Positions 8-41,187 of a stretch of DNA of 48,934 bases are shown here, one piece after another. The stretch is from assembly GCA_903872035.1 (NCBI GenBank), contig CAIQIZ010000002.1:1-48934 (forward strand). The letters run 5' to 3'. A model generated the notes under the pieces. It searched no databases. It was given only the letters and a program-made list of their open reading frames with translations, and had not been told where the DNA came from. Made by a program: the position numbers and the translations under genes. The first letter of the stretch is position 1, and each line of letters starts with the position of its first letter. Source of the DNA: an uncultured bacterium (lineage in GTDB: Bacteria; Patescibacteriota; Minisyncoccia; Phycocordibacterales; PALSA-1337).

Positions 8-3000
8 TTGTATCAACCGACAGCGACTTTGGCTTTGAAGTTTCAGGTCAACAATGAGACGGCGCTGAACATTGATTACTTAAAACGCATCGGTGTTGGT
101 ACGACTTCCCCTAGATCATTATTGGATGTTGTCGGTACTCGTGGGTCACAAACCGATTTATTTAATGTTTCGTCCACTACCGCCACTGATGTGGTCTCCA
201 GCCTGTTCAGGATTCAAGCCAACGGCAACGTCGGCATCGGGACGACGAGTCCAGGGGCATTATTGGATGTATATACTGAAGTCACGGGCGCAACCTCAAC
301 ATTACGATTGAGTAGAGGTAGTTTAAGCGGTTCGGGAGATGCAATCGGCGCTTTGCAATTTTATGAATCGAAGTACGGTGGAGGGGTCGAGGCGCAAATT
401 TCCGGTTATAGAGGAAATTCACAACTTTATGGAGGACTGACCTTCTGGACGAGTAACAATAATAATTTGCTTGAGCGAATGAGAATAGATAATCTAGGCA
501 ACGTCGGCATCGGGACGACGAGTCCAGCAATGAAATTGGATGTTGTTGGCGCTGGAAGATTTACCGAAGGGACACTTCGTTCCTCGGCAATGCTATCAAC
601 TGGTACAATCGGGGGTGTCGGCGGAGTACTATATTTGGCAAATGATGTTGGTTCAACATTGGGTGCTACGAGATTTATAACTACTTATTCTGGAGCTGGA
701 ACGATAGGTTATTCTAATCTCGCAATTCAAAGGTCAACAAACTCTATAGCTTACGGAGGTGACCCGTCAACCTTGACTTATGTTACATCTATGACAATAG
801 ATGGTAGCACCGGCAACGTCGGCATCGGGACGACGACGCCGAGATACAAAACAGAAGTAGTTGGTGGTTCTGCTACTCCATTCGGTGTGACCTCTAACAA
901 TACAAATACTGCATATTTGGATATCAATACTCTAAATTCTACGACTTATAGTAAAACTCTTTCTTTGGGTGTGGAAAATGGGAACGCCACACCTTATGGA
1001 TTTATCCAGACATCTGGAGGTTCATTCTTTAATTTGGTCTTGAACCGTTATGGAGGCAACGTCGGGATTGGGACGATGGCTCCGGCTCAAAAACTCGATA
1101 TGGTTGCTGGTGGGGCGTATGGGTATAACGGACAAATTTTGGCACAAGCAAGCACAACGCTTTTTAACTACTTCTTTGGTAACAGTGGTAATTTGACTGC
1201 CACAGGTGATACTAATACTGCTGTAGGTAACACCAGTCTTCATAGTCTTGGTGCCGGAGGAAAAAATGTTGCTATAGGTGGAGGAACTCTTTATTCGGGA
1301 GTGACGAACGGATATGATACCGCCGTCGGATACACTGCAGGTTATTATCACACGGGCGGTTTTGATACGGCTATTGGCGCAAGTTCACTATTCCACAATA
1401 CGACAAGCGGAAATAATACGGCCGTAGGCTATCAGTCAGGTTACACTCTTCTTTCTGGCGCGAACAATACCTTTATCGGTTATGGCGCTGATGTTACTTC
1501 TGCCGCCTCCACAACTTTGACTAATTCAACCGCTATTGGTTACAACTCTATTGTCGGCTGTTCCAATTGTCTAGTCTTGGGCGGCACGGGGGCGAATGCG
1601 GTCAACGTCGGGATCGGGACAACTTCGCCGTGGGCGGCATTATCTATTCAGGAGACTGTCGGCGGTTCCACTCCATTATTCATAGTTGCTAGCTCGACGG
1701 CTGGAACCGGAACGACGACGGCTATGTTCATCGATTCATATGGAAGGGTAGGTGTTGGCACCACTACTTTGGCTGCCCCGTTCACTGTTACTGGTTCGGG
1801 CACAGGCATCGTTCAGACCGGTCAATGGGTTGGAGGCAATAATTACGCCGGTTATTATATGAACGGCGATTTTGCGACTGTAGCCAACAATTTCAACTTC
1901 TTGAGCAGCCCGACTGATAAGAATCTTTATATCAACAGACCGTCAGCCGCGGATATCATCTTTAGGGAAGCAAACGGGGCGACGCCGAATATGATATTGA
2001 AGGCAACAACAGGTAATGTTGGTATCGGGACGACGAGTCCGTTAGATCAGTTACATGTCTTTAAAACTGCTTCTGATCACACCATGGCAGTTGATTCTGC
2101 TGGCCAATATACGACAATCGATTTTATGCACAGTGGTGTGCAGAAAGGACAGATGTACTATGATAATAGTAATTCATTTTTTGCCTTCGCCGCTGCCAAT
2201 TCAATACCTTTCTATATAAACCCTGCGGGAGCGAATGGAAATGTTATTTTAGCTACAGGTGGCGGTAACGTCGGCATCGGCACCACCACTCCCGGATCAA
2301 TGTTGAGCGTCGCTGGAAATGGAAATATCATTCCGCCTGTTACGGTGACCGGGGCACAGAGTCCAATATCATTGAACGGCACGTATTATTACGCCGGAAT
2401 TTACAATGGACAATATTACTACACCGGTTCGAATGGAGGTTTCATCTGGTGGCTGCCTATAGGATATTGGATCGTTTCTCCGGTTCTAGGAATGCAGGTA
2501 AATGATTTCTATCAAGGAGGCATCGGAAACGGTCAAGCACCTTTGACTGCCGGTTGGACGCCACAGATTGGTGCGACTGGAACTTTGACGACCGCCGCCA
2601 GTACTGCAGCCGTGGCGGTCAGCGGTAACGGGTATCTCTCCGGTTCGTTGGGAATAGGCGGAGGGTTGACGATCTTTGGTGCGAGCAACTTTATCGCGGC
2701 GACTACGACTTACAATACCAGCACCAATATCTTCAATGTCACCACCGCCAGTTCGACTAACTCCATATTATCTATCTTGGGAAATGGAAATGTCGGTATC
2801 GGCACCAGTACTCCTACCGCGTATCTAGACGTAAATGGCAACGCGCTCTTCGGTCAAAATATTACTCAGGCAACCGCAACTCCTGAGAACGTCTCATTGG
2901 GAGGTTCATATGGAAATAACACTCCGGGCAGCGCCGCTAATACCAAACTTAGCCTTTTCAATGATGGTGCAGGGAATATTTACGGTCTCGGCGTCTCATC

Positions 3001-6000
3001 AGGTCTCATGGAATTCCGCACGCCGGCGAATGCTTCCTTCGGCTTCTTCCCGAACAACTCCACGACTCAGGCGCTCAGCATCAATTCTGGCGGCAACGTG
3101 GGCATCGGCTCGACCACACCCTGGGGTCAACTATCGGCATCCAGCACTTCAGCGTTTCCGACTTTCGCCGTTCAACAGAACAGCACTGGTCCGGCCGCGA
3201 CTTTCCTAGGAGGAAATGTGGGGATCGGGATGGTTAGCCCAGTGTCAAAGGTTGAAGTCACTACCAATGACTCAGGCAAGTTCCTTCAGTTGGATTATCT
3301 GGGTAGTCCGCTGAACTATAATCTGAATGTTGTTGATGCTGTCACTGCGAACAATGTCGCTTGGAATTTTACTCAAAGGAATAATGGGACGGATTACAAT
3401 GTGTTGAGTTTTAATGGTGGAAAAGTCGGCATCGGGACAACTACGCCAGATGCCGCGTTGACTGTTACTTCACCAGCGTCCGTATATACATCTGAGGTGG
3501 GAAACCTAAAAATCAATGTCAACGCCAATCCTCGGCAAATGCTTTACATGGGTTACGACACGAACCTTGGAACATATGGGTCAGGATATATTCAAGCAGA
3601 ACAGAAGGGAGCAACATGGACGCCTTTGTTACTCAACCCGAACGGTGGAAATGTCGGCATCGGAACCACAACTCCTGGAGCGACTCTAGATGTGAATGGC
3701 AGCTTACGTGTCGGTTCAGAACAAACATTGATTCTAAATAGGACGATTCCAACGACCGTCGACAATACGGTTGATATCGGTAATTTTGCAACAACACATG
3801 CTCACACTGTACACATGTCGATTGTTGTTAGCGACGGCGGTTTCTCCGTTTCAAAAGTTTATGATATTGCTTCAGGATATGATCAGACCGGGGGTGCTTG
3901 GAAAATCGTTCAGCCAATTTCAGATTCCGGTGTATATAGCGGAAACAATTTCCAGCTTGAAGCCAATCAAAGTTTATACATTTTATCTTTCAGAATAAGG
4001 AGAACGGTAGGTGCGCAGCCTGGTACTGCATATGTGACGATGAATTATGACAGCACATTGAATGGTGTCTTTACAGCTTCTTCAGCAACTGCGAGCGGTG
4101 TTGCGGCAGTCACGACATTCTATCCGAGCACTGTTCTAACTCAGGTTGGGGGAAATGTCGGGATCGGGACGACGAGTCCGACGGCGAAGTTGCACATTGC
4201 AGGTACCGGACAAAATACTCCAGCTTTGACAGAGGCTGGGTCGAGAGACAATCTGTTGTTTTTGGATCAAAGCGCGAACTTAACTACTGGATCTGGAGGA
4301 GGCGCTCTATTCGGTGCCAACGGACAGCGCTTTGCCGCGATAAAAGGATATTGGTGGGACAGCACTGGAAATTCCGTCGGTGATCTGGCTTTTTCTACTC
4401 GCAGAGCTGTTGGCGATTCTGCACTGACGGAAGCGATGAGAATAATGTATACCGGCTACGTCGGCATCGGCACGACCACTCCAGACAATATGTTGACTAT
4501 TGCAAAGGATCAAAACCAGTCGACCTCTATGGATTTGAGAAATCCCAATGCCGGCTCAAGTGCAGCTACTAATTACTTTGCATACAACAGTTCTTATGTG
4601 GCCGGCTTCGGTTTGTCTGGCACCAACTTCAGTGGTTACGGATCGCAACTTGGGAACATGGCCAATATCTACTCGAACGCTCCGAATGGTTTGAACCTTA
4701 TGGCCGATAACGCTACTGGCTTTATCGATTTTGCTACAGGCGGTCCTACAGAACGTATGCGTATCGCCACCAGCGGTAGCGTCTATATCGGCACATCGAC
4801 TACATATACCGGCACATATAAGTTCTTTGTCGAAAACAGCACCAATGGCGTGGCTGGATTCATGAACGATGGAGCGTTGGGAGCTGGAGGTGGAGCCGGC
4901 ATGCAAGGTTTGATCAACGCTTTGCCAACTGCCGGTGGACAACGCCTAGGATTCCTGACTTTCGGTACCATGACGACCGCGGTCAAGAACACCGCATCTG
5001 TTGAAGGATATGCATCGGACGTGTTTACTCCGACGTCTATGCCGACATATCTGACCTTTAGTACAACGCCAGCAAACTCCACGGCTCGCGCAGAAGTCAT
5101 GAGGATCGATCAGAACGGAAATGTTGGTATCGGCACAACTTCACCATCTAATACTTTGACCGTTAATGGCACCGGACAATTTACTGGACACATGGCTATT
5201 GGTAATTATGGAATAGTAGACACATATACAGGAATTGCCGGTGACCCAGTCAATCAGCAAGCACGCCGTAATCTTCCATCCACTCTGTTATTAAACGACT
5301 ATCGTTCAGGAGATTTATCTACAGCATTTGCTCAAGAGAATTTGTCTGTAATGGGAAGTTATAAACATACTGGCACTGCCTCTACCTCGATTTACGGCAT
5401 AGACTCATCACCATATATCAATTCTGATTCCACGGGGCCGTTCAACGGTCTTGAGGCCGTTGATGGATATTCTACGAATTTTGGCTCTGGGCCAATTAGT
5501 TATATGATGGGAGGTGATTTTGGAACAACAAATTATGGAACAGGCCGGATAAATTACTTGGCTGGTCTCGGCAGTTGGTCGACGAACAAAGGGGCGGCAA
5601 TTGTTGACGCGAATATCGGTTTTGAAGCAGGAGTTGCAAACGAGCATGGCACAGTCGCAAATAGCTATGGAGTGATGATAGACAGCGCAACTAACACTTT
5701 GGGTGGAACCACTCAAAATAACTATGGTCTGTATGTTAATGATCAATCAGGTTCGGGAGCTGCTAATACCTATAATATCTATTCTGCTGGAACCGGTGTG
5801 AATTATTTTGGTGGCAACGTCGGCATCGGGACGTCGACACCGTCAAGCATATTGCATGTGAGAAAAGATCTTGATTCTGATGTTGCTCTTACGGTTGAAA
5901 ATCAAAGCACTGGAGTTCATCATGACGTGCAGCTTGTATTGAAAGACGCTGTTAATACTCTTTCCTTGGTTACCCAAAGCACTAGTTTGGTTCAGGATTT

Positions 6001-9000
6001 TATCGGAAGCAGTCTTATACATAGTGGTGTAGGACCTCTCAACATCAAGGCCGCCGTAGCCAATCAACCTCTTAGGCTATATGCTGGCGGTCAAGATTCT
6101 ACCTCGCTGCGCATGACTATCGACGGTACGGATGGTCACGTCATGATCGGCACAACCACGAATCTGAACAGCGATTCGTTGACTGTCTGGGGAAATACTA
6201 CTGGTGGCAATCATTACACCCGCATGGCTTTGAATAATCCTACCGCTGGAAGCGGAACGAGTTTCCGTTACTATAACGGATCTCTCATTGGCGCTGCTAT
6301 AGCTTACAATAACGATACTAGTCAGTTCCAGATCGATGGTTTGTCACCGAGTTCGTTTACGACATTTGGCACGGCGGGAGTCGAGAGGATGAGGATCACC
6401 AACGCCGGTGATGTCACTATGCAGAATAGTTTAATGATCGGCGGGACCAATGTCTCGGCCAGTAACAATTCCATAGCCTTTGGTCATACGACCGATAATA
6501 ATAGTAATATCACTGCCAGTGGTAACGGAAGTATGGCAATGGGATACGGAGCTTCTTTTTCGGGTGCCGGCCAAATCGCTGCCACGGGTACAGGTGCATT
6601 TGCCGGAGGATATACTACCGGAGGAGCAGGGACGATGATTGTTTCCTCGATAAATTCTGGAGGTGGCGGGTCATTGGCTTTTGGTGAAGCGGTCAACTGG
6701 GGACATATTTTATCTTATGGTGCAGGTTCAGTCGCTCTCGGTTATTCCGCGGTTTTGGGTGACATAACTTCATCTGGCATCGGATCATTTGCCTTCGGTG
6801 AAGGTATGATGCATCCCATAACTTCCTCTGGAAATGGTTCATTTGCAGGCGGAGATTCATTTAATGGAGCAATAACAGCCACAGGAGATTCATCATTCGC
6901 CTACGGTCAGAACATTAATGCCACAGCACAACTAGCCACCGCCTTTGGTTCCGGTTACACCAACTCTACAGCTAATAGCTTTAATGTTGGTTATGGCGCA
7001 ACACCGACCATAGCGATAGATGCAAGTTCAGTTGGTGTGAATGGAACCCTCAATGCCTTTGGTGCGTCGAGATTCACTACTCTCCCTAATTTTGGTCCGG
7101 CCTCTAATAACGTCCAGGTAGGAATGTGGAATCCGCTCTGGACCGCTATAGGTGCCGGCAAGTCTCTCTATGACGATGAGGATTTCGCTGTTGGATATAA
7201 CGGTGTCAATGTCTACAACAATTCCGGAGGCAATGGAGTCGTCATTAACAGGGTTGCTTCCTCGACAGCGCCAAATACTTCAGGTTATGTTTTGCAGATT
7301 GTTGATAACGGTAACTCAACTTCACCCGGGTACGGCGGATTCTATTTGCCGATATTCGCGCGTGCCAATACCACTTTTGTGGAGAGATTCAAAGCTTGGC
7401 TTCCGGTCGGTTATACATTTGTCCTGGCAGAAAATCCGCAAGGATCTGATAGTACGTCATATTGGTTGACGCCGGTGGCTGGTACAGGCAAGTGGGAAGA
7501 ATACATCAGAGTCTCTCATGCCGGTAGCACGGGTACTTTCTCCTCTGGCGGACACGTTTGGGTTTCGAGCGCGGCCAGCAACGTCTTTAGTTGGTACTTG
7601 GCCAGCGCAAATATCTATGAGGTCGAAAACGGAGTGGTTACGACGAACACTCTGGGAACGGCTGGTCAAGTTCCGTATTACGGCGCAGCCGGAAGGTCGC
7701 TCACAGCTACATCATCGTTGTTTATTGCTAGCACTAGTAATGTTGGTATCGGAACAGTTGCGCCTCGTGGAGCCTTGGAGACCGCGGCCGGAGCACAGGG
7801 AACGACCAATGGTAATGCAACATTCACTGGTGGCGGAGCAGGGTGGGTCGGTTGGTATGGAAATACCTGGTCGAACGTGATCGGTCAGGGCGCGGGCGAG
7901 GCAGCTTATCATGGTGGCGACGCAGGAGGAATATTCAACGGCGGCGCTGGAACTTATGTGTCTGGTGGTGGCGCAGGACTTTATGCCGCGGGCGGAAATG
8001 GTGGAGCGTATGGCCGAGGCGGAACAGGACTCTTCGTCAAAGGAGGTATTGATGGTGTGAATTATGGAAGCGGAGTTGCCCCGGCCCTCGTAGTTCCAGA
8101 TAATGGTGGCAACGTCGGCATCGGTACAAACTCTCCTGGAAATAAGTTGACTGTTATGAAGTCAGTCAACGATACTATTCCTGCGTTAGGTAGCAATGGT
8201 GGTAGCTTTGGAATATTCAAATCGGACTCAGGGAACCAGCTAGGAAATTACGGAATGATCTTTGGTGTATTAGGTACTGGCGATGTCTTTCAACAGGTTC
8301 AGCGTGTAGACTCTAACGCGACTGCTTACAATCTATTATTGCAGCCGAATGGTGGTAATGTCGGTATCGGGACCACTTCTCCTTATGCCAAACTTTCGGT
8401 GGTCGGTTTGACGGTCGCTGATAACTTCAATGCCTTGAACTCATCCGCAACCTCAACATTCTCCGGCGGATTCGTAGCCAACGGTTTGAGCATCCTCGAC
8501 AACGCTCAATTGGGGAATATGACCTTCGATGCTGATGCTGGTACGGTCTCTTGGATGGACATGCCATTCCTATCAGCTGCCAACAACACTGTGGAAAGTT
8601 ACAGCGCTCAATTGAATGGAAATCAGGCTCTGACTATCTGGGGACAGGAAGACGGAGCGGGCAATCTGAAGAACTTGCGCAGTCTCTTCGGTACCACCAC
8701 TACTGCTATCCTTTCTTCATCCAACATACCTTTCGGTTCAGTCATCATTGGTAACGGAGCGCTCTGTGTGCAAAATAGCGGAGCGGCTAACAACTGTGCC
8801 ACTGCGGGTAGAACGGCCGGCACGATATATGCTCAAGCGGCTTCCGTTACTGCCCTCGACTTGGCCGAACAATATCCGACCACTGACACTACTTTGATGC
8901 CTGGCGAATTGCTCATGGCTGATCCGGCCAATCCGATCTATGTCTCCAGATACAATGCCAATCCTTCTTCAGTTTCAACGACTGGTACCACTTCGGTGAT

Positions 9001-10690
9001 GTCAGCCTCAGGTACCGCTTCGTTGGTTTCAGCATCTGGTACTGATCCGCTGGCTTCAACGACGGGTACTACCCAGGTTGCTTCAGTGTCAGGTACTTCT
9101 CCAGTCACTTCAACCGTCGCACCAGTGATCATAGGTGTTGTCTCTACTGCTCCAGGTCTCGTCCTTGGCGGATTCAACGGAAATGTCGAGAAGGCTGCCA
9201 AGAATGTTCCAGTAGCTTTGACAGGTCGCGTTCCAGTCCTAGTCAACCTCGAAGGCGGACCGATCGCCGTCGGTGATCGCTTGGCTCCGTCATCTATTCC
9301 GGGTGTCGCGACAAAGGCTACGAAGACTGGATACACAGTCGGTACTGCTTTGGAGTCGGTGACTTCGCTTGATGGTGCAAGCTCCGTGGCGGTCACAGCC
9401 TTCATCGACAGAGTCTACTATGTTGCGCCGGTCATCTCTGTGGTGATCAGCACGACTACGGTCTCGACTACGACTATCGATGAACAGATCGCTGCAATAA
9501 ACACGCAAATCACTTCTATCGGTACTCAAGTATCGAGCTTGGCGTCTACTACTATGGATTTGGCCTCAACAACCTCAGGATTCACTTCAGTCGCAACGGT
9601 CTTGGCTTCGACAACAAATGATCTACAGTCGCAGACCGCTGGCATCAACATGCAGATCACTGCTATCAATTTGAAGCTTGCCAATCTGGCTTCTACTACA
9701 TCTAATTCTGCCTCGACAACTTCAGGAGCTGGCTTTAGCGGAGGTTCAACTTCCGGTTCGACTATTTCCAGCACAGCGTCGACCACAGCCGATCAACAAT
9801 TCGCATCTATCAATTCTCAAATCACCTTGATCAACTCTCATGTTTCAAGCTTGGCTTCGACTTCAGCTGATCTGGCCTCGACCACAGCTTATCTAGCCGA
9901 CGCTATCGATGCGTTATCTGCGACCTCGAGCACCTTCTTTGCCAGCACGTCACAAGCTCTAGCTTCTTCTACGCCATTCATTCAGGCTATCGCCAATGCT
10001 GTGCAAAATCTGATCGCCGTGGCAGGGAATTGGGTCGTCAACCGATTGACTGCGCATATCGCCTACATCGATCGTGTCGAAGCCAAGGTAGCAGCTATCT
10101 CTGAAGGTTTGGAAATGACCGATCAAGCCACAGGATCGATCTACTGCGTGGCTATAAGGAATGGTAATTGGGACAGAGTACTTGGTCCTTGCGGCACGGC
10201 TTCGTCAACTGCAGTTGTGGCTTCATCGACAAGCGCTACCAATACTGCGGCCGTTATAAATACGGCGTCTGTTGCAAACACCGTTATTCCGAATCTCATC
10301 GTAACCGATACATCAGCTCTGTCTTCAGCCACAAGTTCGACCGTAAGCGGAGCGTCGGTTTCGACAACATCCTCAACCTCGCCTTCAACTGGCGCTGCTC
10401 CTGCAACCAATCCTACGGCAGCGGTCACGGCCAGTTCAAGTCCGAGCATGACCACGACTGTTTCTGGCGTAAGCACGACTATTCCAACCACTACTATCAC
10501 TGATCCAGCTGCCAATACTGTGTCGAGCAATCCAGTAGTTTCCCCAGCTTTAGCGCCTTCTTCAGCGCCTGCATCTGCTCCGGATCCGGTAGTGGCCCCT
10601 GTGGCAGAGCCTGCAGCTCCAGCGGCTGCTCCTGCAGCGCCGGCACCAGCCCCAGTTGATACAAGTGCCGCTGCGCCAGTTGCACCATAG
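8..10690 (+). CDS. Giant repetitive fibre/tail-like surface protein, 5'-partial (frame open at window start)
   Basis: Open frame of at least 3560 aa; the called start is a TTG at position 8, so the gene probably begins upstream. About 23 'G-N-V-G-I-G-T-T-S/T-P' type repeats; two YadA/Hep_Hag-like blocks (NTAVGYQSGYTLLSGANNTFIGYG; SIAFGHTTDN...GSMAMGYGASF); C-terminal 'LAEQYPTTD..PGELL...VALTGRVPVLVNLEGGPIAVGDRLAPSSIPGVA' domain; LASTT coiled-coil-like repeats; P/A/S/T-rich tail. Confidence 0.85.
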   Translation: MYQPTATLALKFQVNNETALNIDYLKRIGVGTTSPRSLLDVVGTRGSQTDLFNVSSTTATDVVSSLFRIQANGNVGIGTTSPGALLDVYTEVTGATSTLRLSRGSLSGSGDAIGALQFYESKYGGGVEAQISGYRGNSQLYGGLTFWTSNNNNLLERMRIDNLGNVGIGTTSPAMKLDVVGAGRFTEGTLRSSAMLSTGTIGGVGGVLYLANDVGSTLGATRFITTYSGAGTIGYSNLAIQRSTNSIAYGGDPSTLTYVTSMTIDGSTGNVGIGTTTPRYKTEVVGGSATPFGVTSNNTNTAYLDINTLNSTTYSKTLSLGVENGNATPYGFIQTSGGSFFNLVLNRYGGNVGIGTMAPAQKLDMVAGGAYGYNGQILAQASTTLFNYFFGNSGNLTATGDTNTAVGNTSLHSLGAGGKNVAIGGGTLYSGVTNGYDTAVGYTAGYYHTGGFDTAIGASSLFHNTTSGNNTAVGYQSGYTLLSGANNTFIGYGADVTSAASTTLTNSTAIGYNSIVGCSNCLVLGGTGANAVNVGIGTTSPWAALSIQETVGGSTPLFIVASSTAGTGTTTAMFIDSYGRVGVGTTTLAAPFTVTGSGTGIVQTGQWVGGNNYAGYYMNGDFATVANNFNFLSSPTDKNLYINRPSAADIIFREANGATPNMILKATTGNVGIGTTSPLDQLHVFKTASDHTMAVDSAGQYTTIDFMHSGVQKGQMYYDNSNSFFAFAAANSIPFYINPAGANGNVILATGGGNVGIGTTTPGSMLSVAGNGNIIPPVTVTGAQSPISLNGTYYYAGIYNGQYYYTGSNGGFIWWLPIGYWIVSPVLGMQVNDFYQGGIGNGQAPLTAGWTPQIGATGTLTTAASTAAVAVSGNGYLSGSLGIGGGLTIFGASNFIAATTTYNTSTNIFNVTTASSTNSILSILGNGNVGIGTSTPTAYLDVNGNALFGQNITQATATPENVSLGGSYGNNTPGSAANTKLSLFNDGAGNIYGLGVSSGLMEFRTPANASFGFFPNNSTTQALSINSGGNVGIGSTTPWGQLSASSTSAFPTFAVQQNSTGPAATFLGGNVGIGMVSPVSKVEVTTNDSGKFLQLDYLGSPLNYNLNVVDAVTANNVAWNFTQRNNGTDYNVLSFNGGKVGIGTTTPDAALTVTSPASVYTSEVGNLKINVNANPRQMLYMGYDTNLGTYGSGYIQAEQKGATWTPLLLNPNGGNVGIGTTTPGATLDVNGSLRVGSEQTLILNRTIPTTVDNTVDIGNFATTHAHTVHMSIVVSDGGFSVSKVYDIASGYDQTGGAWKIVQPISDSGVYSGNNFQLEANQSLYILSFRIRRTVGAQPGTAYVTMNYDSTLNGVFTASSATASGVAAVTTFYPSTVLTQVGGNVGIGTTSPTAKLHIAGTGQNTPALTEAGSRDNLLFLDQSANLTTGSGGGALFGANGQRFAAIKGYWWDSTGNSVGDLAFSTRRAVGDSALTEAMRIMYTGYVGIGTTTPDNMLTIAKDQNQSTSMDLRNPNAGSSAATNYFAYNSSYVAGFGLSGTNFSGYGSQLGNMANIYSNAPNGLNLMADNATGFIDFATGGPTERMRIATSGSVYIGTSTTYTGTYKFFVENSTNGVAGFMNDGALGAGGGAGMQGLINALPTAGGQRLGFLTFGTMTTAVKNTASVEGYASDVFTPTSMPTYLTFSTTPANSTARAEVMRIDQNGNVGIGTTSPSNTLTVNGTGQFTGHMAIGNYGIVDTYTGIAGDPVNQQARRNLPSTLLLNDYRSGDLSTAFAQENLSVMGSYKHTGTASTSIYGIDSSPYINSDSTGPFNGLEAVDGYSTNFGSGPISYMMGGDFGTTNYGTGRINYLAGLGSWSTNKGAAIVDANIGFEAGVANEHGTVANSYGVMIDSATNTLGGTTQNNYGLYVNDQSGSGAANTYNIYSAGTGVNYFGGNVGIGTSTPSSILHVRKDLDSDVALTVENQSTGVHHDVQLVLKDAVNTLSLVTQSTSLVQDFIGSSLIHSGVGPLNIKAAVANQPLRLYAGGQDSTSLRMTIDGTDGHVMIGTTTNLNSDSLTVWGNTTGGNHYTRMALNNPTAGSGTSFRYYNGSLIGAAIAYNNDTSQFQIDGLSPSSFTTFGTAGVERMRITNAGDVTMQNSLMIGGTNVSASNNSIAFGHTTDNNSNITASGNGSMAMGYGASFSGAGQIAATGTGAFAGGYTTGGAGTMIVSSINSGGGGSLAFGEAVNWGHILSYGAGSVALGYSAVLGDITSSGIGSFAFGEGMMHPITSSGNGSFAGGDSFNGAITATGDSSFAYGQNINATAQLATAFGSGYTNSTANSFNVGYGATPTIAIDASSVGVNGTLNAFGASRFTTLPNFGPASNNVQVGMWNPLWTAIGAGKSLYDDEDFAVGYNGVNVYNNSGGNGVVINRVASSTAPNTSGYVLQIVDNGNSTSPGYGGFYLPIFARANTTFVERFKAWLPVGYTFVLAENPQGSDSTSYWLTPVAGTGKWEEYIRVSHAGSTGTFSSGGHVWVSSAASNVFSWYLASANIYEVENGVVTTNTLGTAGQVPYYGAAGRSLTATSSLFIASTSNVGIGTVAPRGALETAAGAQGTTNGNATFTGGGAGWVGWYGNTWSNVIGQGAGEAAYHGGDAGGIFNGGAGTYVSGGGAGLYAAGGNGGAYGRGGTGLFVKGGIDGVNYGSGVAPALVVPDNGGNVGIGTNSPGNKLTVMKSVNDTIPALGSNGGSFGIFKSDSGNQLGNYGMIFGVLGTGDVFQQVQRVDSNATAYNLLLQPNGGNVGIGTTSPYAKLSVVGLTVADNFNALNSSATSTFSGGFVANGLSILDNAQLGNMTFDADAGTVSWMDMPFLSAANNTVESYSAQLNGNQALTIWGQEDGAGNLKNLRSLFGTTTTAILSSSNIPFGSVIIGNGALCVQNSGAANNCATAGRTAGTIYAQAASVTALDLAEQYPTTDTTLMPGELLMADPANPIYVSRYNANPSSVSTTGTTSVMSASGTASLVSASGTDPLASTTGTTQVASVSGTSPVTSTVAPVIIGVVSTAPGLVLGGFNGNVEKAAKNVPVALTGRVPVLVNLEGGPIAVGDRLAPSSIPGVATKATKTGYTVGTALESVTSLDGASSVAVTAFIDRVYYVAPVISVVISTTTVSTTTIDEQIAAINTQITSIGTQVSSLASTTMDLASTTSGFTSVATVLASTTNDLQSQTAGINMQITAINLKLANLASTTSNSASTTSGAGFSGGSTSGSTISSTASTTADQQFASINSQITLINSHVSSLASTSADLASTTAYLADAIDALSATSSTFFASTSQALASSTPFIQAIANAVQNLIAVAGNWVVNRLTAHIAYIDRVEAKVAAISEGLEMTDQATGSIYCVAIRNGNWDRVLGPCGTASSTAVVASSTSATNTAAVINTASVANTVIPNLIVTDTSALSSATSSTVSGASVSTTSSTSPSTGAAPATNPTAAVTASSSPSMTTTVSGVSTTIPTTTITDPAANTVSSNPVVSPALAPSSAPASAPDPVVAPVAEPAAPAAAPAAPAPAPVDTSAAAPVAP
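8975..9109 (+). repeat. 27-bp (9-aa) tandem repeat, 5 copies, in-frame within the giant ORF
   Basis: Units STTGTTSVM / SASGTASLV / SASGTDPLA / STTGTTQVA / SVSGTSPVT, each 27 nt and starting with tca. Confidence 0.85.
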
Positions 10691-22865: not shown

Positions 22866-23216
22866 TTAGTCCGTGTAATGCATTCCTCTCGGATGCATTT
22901 TTTGCATAACCTCTTGGAATCCGCCGCGCTTGTTTATGAGTTGTTTTGAGATACGCGCGATTATCTTCGAACTCAGGCCGGTCGCGCTAATTATGTGTTC
23001 ATAAGGTGCCGACATTAGGATCAATTCAGCGGCTTGTAATCTGCGGATACATTGTTCAAGCTCATATTTTGTCATCAGATCATCGAAAAAAGCTTTCATA
23101 AGATCGGTGTCGCGTATGACCATAAAAGCGTCAATTAATCGCTGACTGTCAATCGTGTTCCAATTGACAAAGTTCGGATCCGGTATAGGTTTTTGTCTTT
23201 TTCGAAAATATTTCAT
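22866..23216 (-). CDS. TrpR-like / YerC-type putative DNA-binding protein
   Basis: FFDDLMTKYELEQCIRRLQAAELILMSAPYEHIISATGLSSKIIARISKQL matches the Trp-repressor-like HTH layout. Confidence 0.75.
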   Translation of the reverse strand: MKYFRKRQKPIPDPNFVNWNTIDSQRLIDAFMVIRDTDLMKAFFDDLMTKYELEQCIRRLQAAELILMSAPYEHIISATGLSSKIIARISKQLINKRGGFQEVMQKMHPRGMHYTD

Positions 23217-23384
23217 ATGTCGAATGCCATTTTATGACGAAGAAGAAATCACTGCAATCTACCTTTTGCGATTGGGCGAAAAGTTTTGGACAGAAAATTC
23301 AATTAAGTTGCAACTTTGATTCTGTAGTTTTCATGTAGATTTATGCGTTTTTTGACACGGCTAGGGGCTGCTCTGTCGACTCAA

Positions 23385-23488
23385 CGCACTTTACATATGT
23401 AAAGTAAGCAACCAGAAAATATCGAACTAAAATACGAAGCCTTACTTTACTTATGTAAAGTTGGTTCAAACTGACATAGGTATCCCCC
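23385..23488. repeat. Composite paired-palindrome element, copy 1
   Basis: ACTTTACATATGTAAAGT (23388-23405), 38 nt, ACTTTACTTATGTAAAGT (23444-23461), 3 nt, TTCAAACTGACATAGGTATCCCCC (23465-23488); same geometry as 40541-40643. Confidence 0.85.
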
Positions 23489-40459: not shown

Positions 40460-40540
40460 AACGATTAGTAGTGTCGCATTTTCTATCGTTTCTAGCGTTT
40501 TTTCGTTGGAGGAGGAGAGGGGTGCTATTCTCCGCCGGCA

Positions 40541-40643
40541 CGCACTTTAGTCAACTAAAGTTGGAGGTTCAAAATTTTTCTTGATTTATTTGACGACGGA
40601 CTTTAGTTGACTAAAGTGTCTTCAAACTGAAATAGGTACCCCC
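40541..40643. repeat. Composite paired-palindrome element, copy 2
   Basis: ACTTTAGTCAACTAAAGT (40544-40561), 38 nt, ACTTTAGTTGACTAAAGT (40600-40617), 3 nt, TTCAAACTGAAATAGGTACCCCC (40621-40643). Confidence 0.85.
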
Positions 40644-40715: not shown

Positions 40716-41183
40716 TTCAGCTGTACCAGACAACCGCGCTTTATCAGACCGCAAGGCTTGGTAGAGTGAGGAAAGTCCGAACACTGCCCCGATGCCGTCT
40801 TTGGCGGAGCGGGGAGAAGGGTAATAGGTAACGCCTATGGTGGTAATACCACGAGGTGCGAACAGTGACGTCCGTGAATGAAAATGAGCGGACGCCCCGA
40901 ATCCGACGCAAGTCGGACATTGGGGCGAATCCTTATAGCAATATAGGGAGTGCAACGGCTAAATCCTTACCTCAGTGCAAGGTCGTGTCCGTGCTTCGCA
41001 CGGAGATCCCAGAATTCAAAATTACAGATTCCAATTTGTGATCTGGAACTTGTGATCTGGTGCCTCCATGCGGAGCATGGAAGAACCGCTTGACCCCGCG
41101 AGCGATCGAGGGGCTAGATAAATGGTTGTCTATCTCCGATGTTATGTCGGAGGGAACAGAATTCGGCTTACGGTATGGCGAAA
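40716..41183 (+). ncRNA. rnpB: RNase P RNA (bacterial)
   Basis: P4/CRI GAGGAAAGTCCGAACA (40768-), GTGCAACGGCTAAATCC, GTGCAAGGTC, CCGCTTGAccc..GCGAGCGATCGAGGGGCTAGATAAATGGTTGTC, ACAGAATTCGGCTTACGG; possible P1 pairing TTCAGCTGTACC/GGTATGGCGAA. Confidence 0.93.
41011..41067. repeat. Dispersed CAGATTCC repeat inside rnpB (copy 3)
   Basis: Contains ACAGATTCCAATTT (41024-41037), identical to 32485-32498, plus CTGGAACTT and CTGGTGCC, which also occur in the 29.2 kb copy. Confidence 0.7.
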
Positions 41184-41187
41184 TGGA

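Follow-up and report, generated by a model that had tools for sequence, protein, structure and literature searches.

The window analysed here, a 48,934-nucleotide stretch from an uncultured Patescibacteriota bacterium, carries two copies of a composite element in which paired 18-bp palindromes stand at a fixed distance, one copy next to a gene for a TrpR-family protein and the other upstream of the RNase P RNA gene rnpB (Table 1). An open frame of 3560 aa also lies at 8-10690 on the plus strand. The element's position, its sequences and the 18-38-18-3 spacings described in an earlier note were confirmed in the sequence of both copies. The window holds four exact palindromes, compared with a mean of 0.41 matches in window shuffles where up to two mismatches were allowed.

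Table 1. Coordinates of the composite element copies and associated genes; positions are those of the window except in the last row.
Feature	Position	Strand	Remarks
TrpR-family (HisR/YerC-like) regulator, proposed palindrome binder	22866..23216	-	adjoins copy 1
Copy 1 left arm, GGGG run at end	23364..23387	-	faces regulator gene; aligned with other arms
Copy 1 predicted operator palindrome L, ACTTTACATATGTAAAGT	23388..23405		fits HisR/YerC consensus cacTTTAnnnnnnTAAAgtg (PMC9413887)
Copy 1 spacer, 38 bp, A/T-rich	23406..23443
Copy 1 predicted operator palindrome R, ACTTTACTTATGTAAAGT	23444..23461		consensus match
Copy 1 right arm, type B, TTCAAACTGA...TATCCCCC	23462..23488	+
Copy 2 left arm, type A, GCGTGCCGGCGGA...CACCCC (read outward)	40519..40543	-
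Copy 2 predicted operator palindrome L, ACTTTAGTCAACTAAAGT	40544..40561		consensus match
Copy 2 spacer, 38 bp	40562..40599
Copy 2 predicted operator palindrome R, ACTTTAGTTGACTAAAGT	40600..40617		consensus match
Copy 2 right arm, type B, TTCAAACTGAAATAGGTACCCCC	40618..40643	+	faces rnpB
Terminal boxes of copies 1 / 2	23465-23487 / 40621-40643
rnpB, RNase P RNA gene	40718..41185	+	RF00010 match; downstream of copy 2
TrpR-like genes of L026, L027, L031	5868-6239, 6544-6897, 2584-2922

A search for further copies in the genome and its relatives, as the earlier note had proposed, yielded five in the assembly that holds the window (G000; 1,052,612 bases, 31 contigs) and a sixth palindrome-38-palindrome copy in Candidatus Taylorbacteria fen_1323 (G023), a member of the same genus. 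In G000 all five pairs have the form ACTTTAN6TAAAGT-38-ACTTTAN6TAAAGT, with spacers that vary in sequence and are constant at exactly 38 bp. When degenerate palindrome pairs were tallied at every spacing across this 1.05 Mb, rebuilt with three small contigs left out, five mismatch-free pairs were found at 56 bp versus 0-3 degenerate pairs at each other spacing. The element is real and non-random. Both palindromes within a copy do share their seventh base pair, as had been observed; a C-G pair at this position is confined to copy 1 among the five, as is the core CATATG/CTTATG, and GTYRAC is kept in the other four.

The original description of two palindromes and one terminal box proved incomplete. 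The box is present in copies 1 and 2 and, as written, in no other copy, while outward arms ending in C-runs flank both sides of nearly every copy. The arms, degenerate and ~19-23 nt long, often end in TACCCCC, and almost all palindromes have one on their outward flank, so the order G-run, arm, palindrome, 38 bp, palindrome, arm, C-run forms a roughly symmetric unit of ~125 bp. The two ends repeat the same inverted order (palindrome, arm, C-run) but differ in arm type, as copies 2, 3 and 4 each carry one type A arm (GCGYGCCGGCGGA-like) and one type B arm (GTGTTCAAACTGA-like). Copies 2 and 3 are identical at 51 of 80 positions outside the palindromes; arm similarity within elements is not above that between elements. 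Given this resemblance and the A/B pattern, the composites most plausibly derive from a single module, as polar copies that have diverged. No recognisable -10 was found in the composite arms, where the best hexamer scores -2.9 to 2.8 bits versus 3.3-8.5 bits in the regulator promoters described below, and in the right arm of copy 1 the hexamer is absent at its expected place. The composites would therefore be operator pairs rather than promoters. A divergent promoter pair, with arms that stop where a -10 would fall, was rejected on these scores, and TACCCCC was rejected as a general promoter feature, with five of its 10 occurrences outside predicted genes lying in elements or half-sites.

Across the majority of Firmicutes, Actinobacteria and Synergistetes lineages, operators of HisR, the TrpR-family product of B. 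subtilis yerC, follow the consensus cacTTTAnnnnnnTAAAgtg, and a site precedes close to half of the hisR genes (PMC9413887). By comparison, the palindrome of the element is this published consensus, and all 10 palindromes of the five copies fit it when tested as ACTTTAN6TAAAGT. Judged from its sequence, each 18-bp palindrome is very probably the operator of a TrpR-family regulator. The statement that no described family could be recognised thus fails for the palindrome; for the composite arrangement it stands, within what was searched. No description of the carrier or of the targets in this bacterial group was found in the literature searched; the palindrome is known by consensus, and carrier and targets are, as far as searched, new.

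The protein encoded next to copy 1 matches PF01371 above the cut-off (E=1.9e-10, profile search) and the PDB profiles 3kor, 3frw and 3g1c, and its predicted fold matches these TrpR-like structures; the alignment-based structure model was good and the single-sequence model poor. Against TIGR02531, the YerC/YecD model, it scores 37.9 bits, under the cut-off of 42.2, so we file it as TrpR-family, HisR/YerC-like, and not as HisR. Its G023 orthologue clears the same cut-off at 42.5 bits and is preceded by the G023 copy, with gene order conserved with the copy 1 locus. The palindrome upstream of regulator genes of this subfamily is mostly ACTnnn...nnnAGT, differing in sequence among genes. A TA(N)3T hexamer follows it by 12-14 bp in seven of eight genes tested, providing a recognisable -10 in 7/8 palindrome-bearing regulator promoters, and this distance places the palindrome at the -35 of the regulator's own promoter at most of the regulators compared.

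Comparison of 34 genomes of the same genus associates the sites with the regulator. A TrpR-like gene was found in 11 of the 34, and the subfamily seen here, by alignment, in eight. R1, a covariance model built on the palindrome with its arm, gave 7-75 matches in these eight genomes and 0-3 in the other 26, counts in which one palindrome can match on both strands; the counts separate completely by subfamily presence (Mann-Whitney p=6e-6, 34 genomes). R1 was trained partly on sites from these genomes, none of them from G001, which gave 75 matches. A scan of a public genome collection with the bare 56-bp pattern, blind to the regulator, returned 11 stretches, including G023's own and three from other Paceibacteria, in each of which a TrpR-like gene is immediately preceded by palindromes (0/18/56 or 0/56 bp). 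Together with the consensus and the adjacent TrpR-family gene, this cross-genome association leaves the earlier proposal of paired operators with centres 56 bp apart well supported. Matches to the pattern in Firmicutes and phages were set aside as mostly dense TTTA/TAAA palindrome arrays, not this element; the Firmicutes and phage contigs L032 and L035-L045 hold long stretches dense in ACTTTAN6TAAAGT-like palindromes. In the stretches L026, L027 and L031, from other Paceibacteria, the promoter region of the TrpR-like gene has its upstream palindrome directly adjoined by a perfect DnaA-box-like TTATCCACA.

Residues 79-81 of E. coli TrpR are listed among its DNA contacts (PMC9413887), and the corresponding residues were taken from an alignment made in this analysis. 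Helix S-T-T accompanies ACTTTAG operators in four proteins and S-K-T or S-K-G accompanies ACTTTCC in three, while P-V-T and Y-T-T are found with ACTACA and P-R-I with ACTATAC. The window regulator has S-K-I, unlike the S-T-T found elsewhere with ACTTTAG operators; such operators are present in copies 2-5, and the core of copy 1 differs. Across these 11 proteins, which are related by descent, operator type appears broadly to follow recognition-helix type. Two genomes hold further pair families. G023 has an additional TrpR-like gene and, of ACTACA type, a second pair family, with 38-bp centre spacing and at other loci (L116, which is G023:C71, L166, L168, L171, L173 and L175), and G012 has ACTTTCC-type pairs at ~36 and ~60 bp (L176 and L119).

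Sites lie at rnpB, scpAB, rpsA and the regulator gene, and inside argS. Among the genomes read, the site between scpA and scpB and that upstream of rnpB are each found in G000, G023 and G001 only. At rnpB of G023 the copy is decayed, with a 57-bp spacing and arms that resemble, in matching order, those of copy 2, and an ACTACA-type pair lies beside it. In argS, a variable loop reading HFS(Q/W)LK(S/C) encodes the palindrome in G000, G023, G001 and G024 only, among the genomes read; a gene lying between mraY and murC retains the palindrome, slightly altered, and its protein reads LQSTK, LYLTK or LQSTE. Other neighbours of sites across the genus include several further tRNA synthetases, ribosomal protein L11, sigma-70, topA, mreB, a chaperonin and trigger factor. 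In G001 some sites (L190-L193, L204) lie near GGGCGGGGATGAATGGGTCAACA, which is repeated in several contigs, and some at contig ends. A gene that adjoins a site is not thereby shown to be controlled by it, because core genes are the most easily recognised by homology. The genes adjoining sites include no his genes, and histidinol dehydrogenase (PF00815) was not found in eight genomes with a search that was positive in 13 of 14 control genomes; the predicted targets are therefore not those of his biosynthesis. We infer that the repressor family may have moved to core growth genes.

REPIN/BIME, ERIC and Correia-type repeats are, like the element here, intergenic imperfect palindromes of ~125 bp in several diverged copies, and a tiny mobile element was among the earlier suggestions. 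A MITE- or REPIN-like fold-back element, whose palindromes serve a transposase and bind the regulator only incidentally, would account for the homology of copies 2 and 3 outside the palindromes, for the ends at G/C runs, for the second pair family of G023 and for copy 4, whose counterpart is missing from the orthologous region upstream of rpsA in G023. What stands of this suggestion is that the copies are homologous and dispersed; the transposase, target duplication and clean empty site that would go with it were not found. The rpsA region of G023 is not a clean empty site, and no target-site duplication was seen by eye in the flanks of the five copies, where G/C runs blur the boundaries. A search for a Y1 (REP-type, PF01797) transposase matched once in G000, at C18:5728, ~27 kb away from copy 4, but found none in the drafts of G002, G012 and G023, all of which have sites, and a REPIN/RAYT system was rejected on this ground. 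The copies are also few, in contrast to the known repeat families, and single palindromes occur in G001 without arms, some of them within genes. The palindrome type, moreover, tracks the regulator helix, as would not be expected of a transposase site, and we consider a mobile element of this kind improbable.

The matS, SlmA and Noc sites are, like those here, short palindromes that serve a small dimeric DNA-binding protein, and some lie inside genes. If the TrpR-like protein were a nucleoid protein acting in chromosome organisation or growth control, and not a local repressor, this would fit the palindromes inside the coding sequences of argS and of the gene between mraY and murC, the core-gene positions with no obvious promoter logic and the 56-bp pairs that have no promoters. 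The palindrome at the -35 of regulator genes is instead a position typical of repressor autoregulation, in which it differs from the matS, SlmA and Noc sites, and such a role, judged from genomes in many contigs, seems unlikely. A structured RNA, or a DNA cruciform or switch, built from the two palindromes had also been put forward, and all copies do fold far better than shuffles on either strand (z -3 to -8.6), but this fold is forced by two copies of one palindrome. Complementarity between the arms of one element is not above that between elements (permutation test, inner p=0.97, outer p=0.15), and most copies have CA or TG, in either orientation, as their central dinucleotide, as would a duplex operator. 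The hairpins thus follow from duplication of the palindrome, and an alternative-pairing switch is very improbable.

Our preferred reading is that of a repressor with paired operators. A dimer of the 22866-23216 protein would bind each 18-bp palindrome, a binding we infer from the comparisons above, and the composite would act as a two-operator module that holds two dimers at a fixed 56 bp across the A/T-rich spacer. From a single ancestral polar module of ~125 bp, copies would have dispersed to intergenic sites, and the modules at the regulator gene and rnpB would have been inherited vertically. Single sites may repress by blocking polymerase. At the promoterless composites, the pair may form a two-dimer complex that affects nearby transcription, as a roadblock or through local looping, and composite pairs may also buffer the level of the regulator. 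That composites control local transcription we regard as an evenly balanced proposition.

The system resembles the HisR/YerC regulon in its operator consensus (TTTAnnnnnnTAAA with AC/GT flanks), its PF01371 regulator and the operator that precedes the regulator gene. It departs from that regulon in its predicted targets, which lie outside his biosynthesis, in operators that form fixed-spacing pairs on dispersed elements and also occur inside genes, in paralogues with different operators in some genomes, and in a window protein that falls under the TIGR02531 cut-off. HisR/YerC regulators need L-histidine for DNA binding, and their regulon covers genes of histidine biosynthesis or uptake. E. coli TrpR shares the protein family and, by structure prediction, the fold of the window regulator. 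The palindrome core TAGTTRACTA resembles the core of the E. coli trp operator, from which the outer half-sites here differ, and no trp genes were noticed among the genes next to sites.

Very little is known of gene regulation in Patescibacteria. We propose tentatively, and at somewhat less than even confidence, that in Taylorbacteria-like members of this group a family of amino-acid-operon repressors now regulates core growth genes (RNase P RNA, scpAB, rpsA, tRNA synthetases), that dispersed two-operator modules served its spread, and that recognition helix and operator have changed in concert among the paralogues of the genus. For one lineage the analysis supplies a regulator and operator, both predicted, and a set of candidate targets, all directly testable in vitro. 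The paralogues would provide a natural series in which operator sequence tracks the recognition helix, and the composites an example of predicted operators borne on small dispersed repeats.
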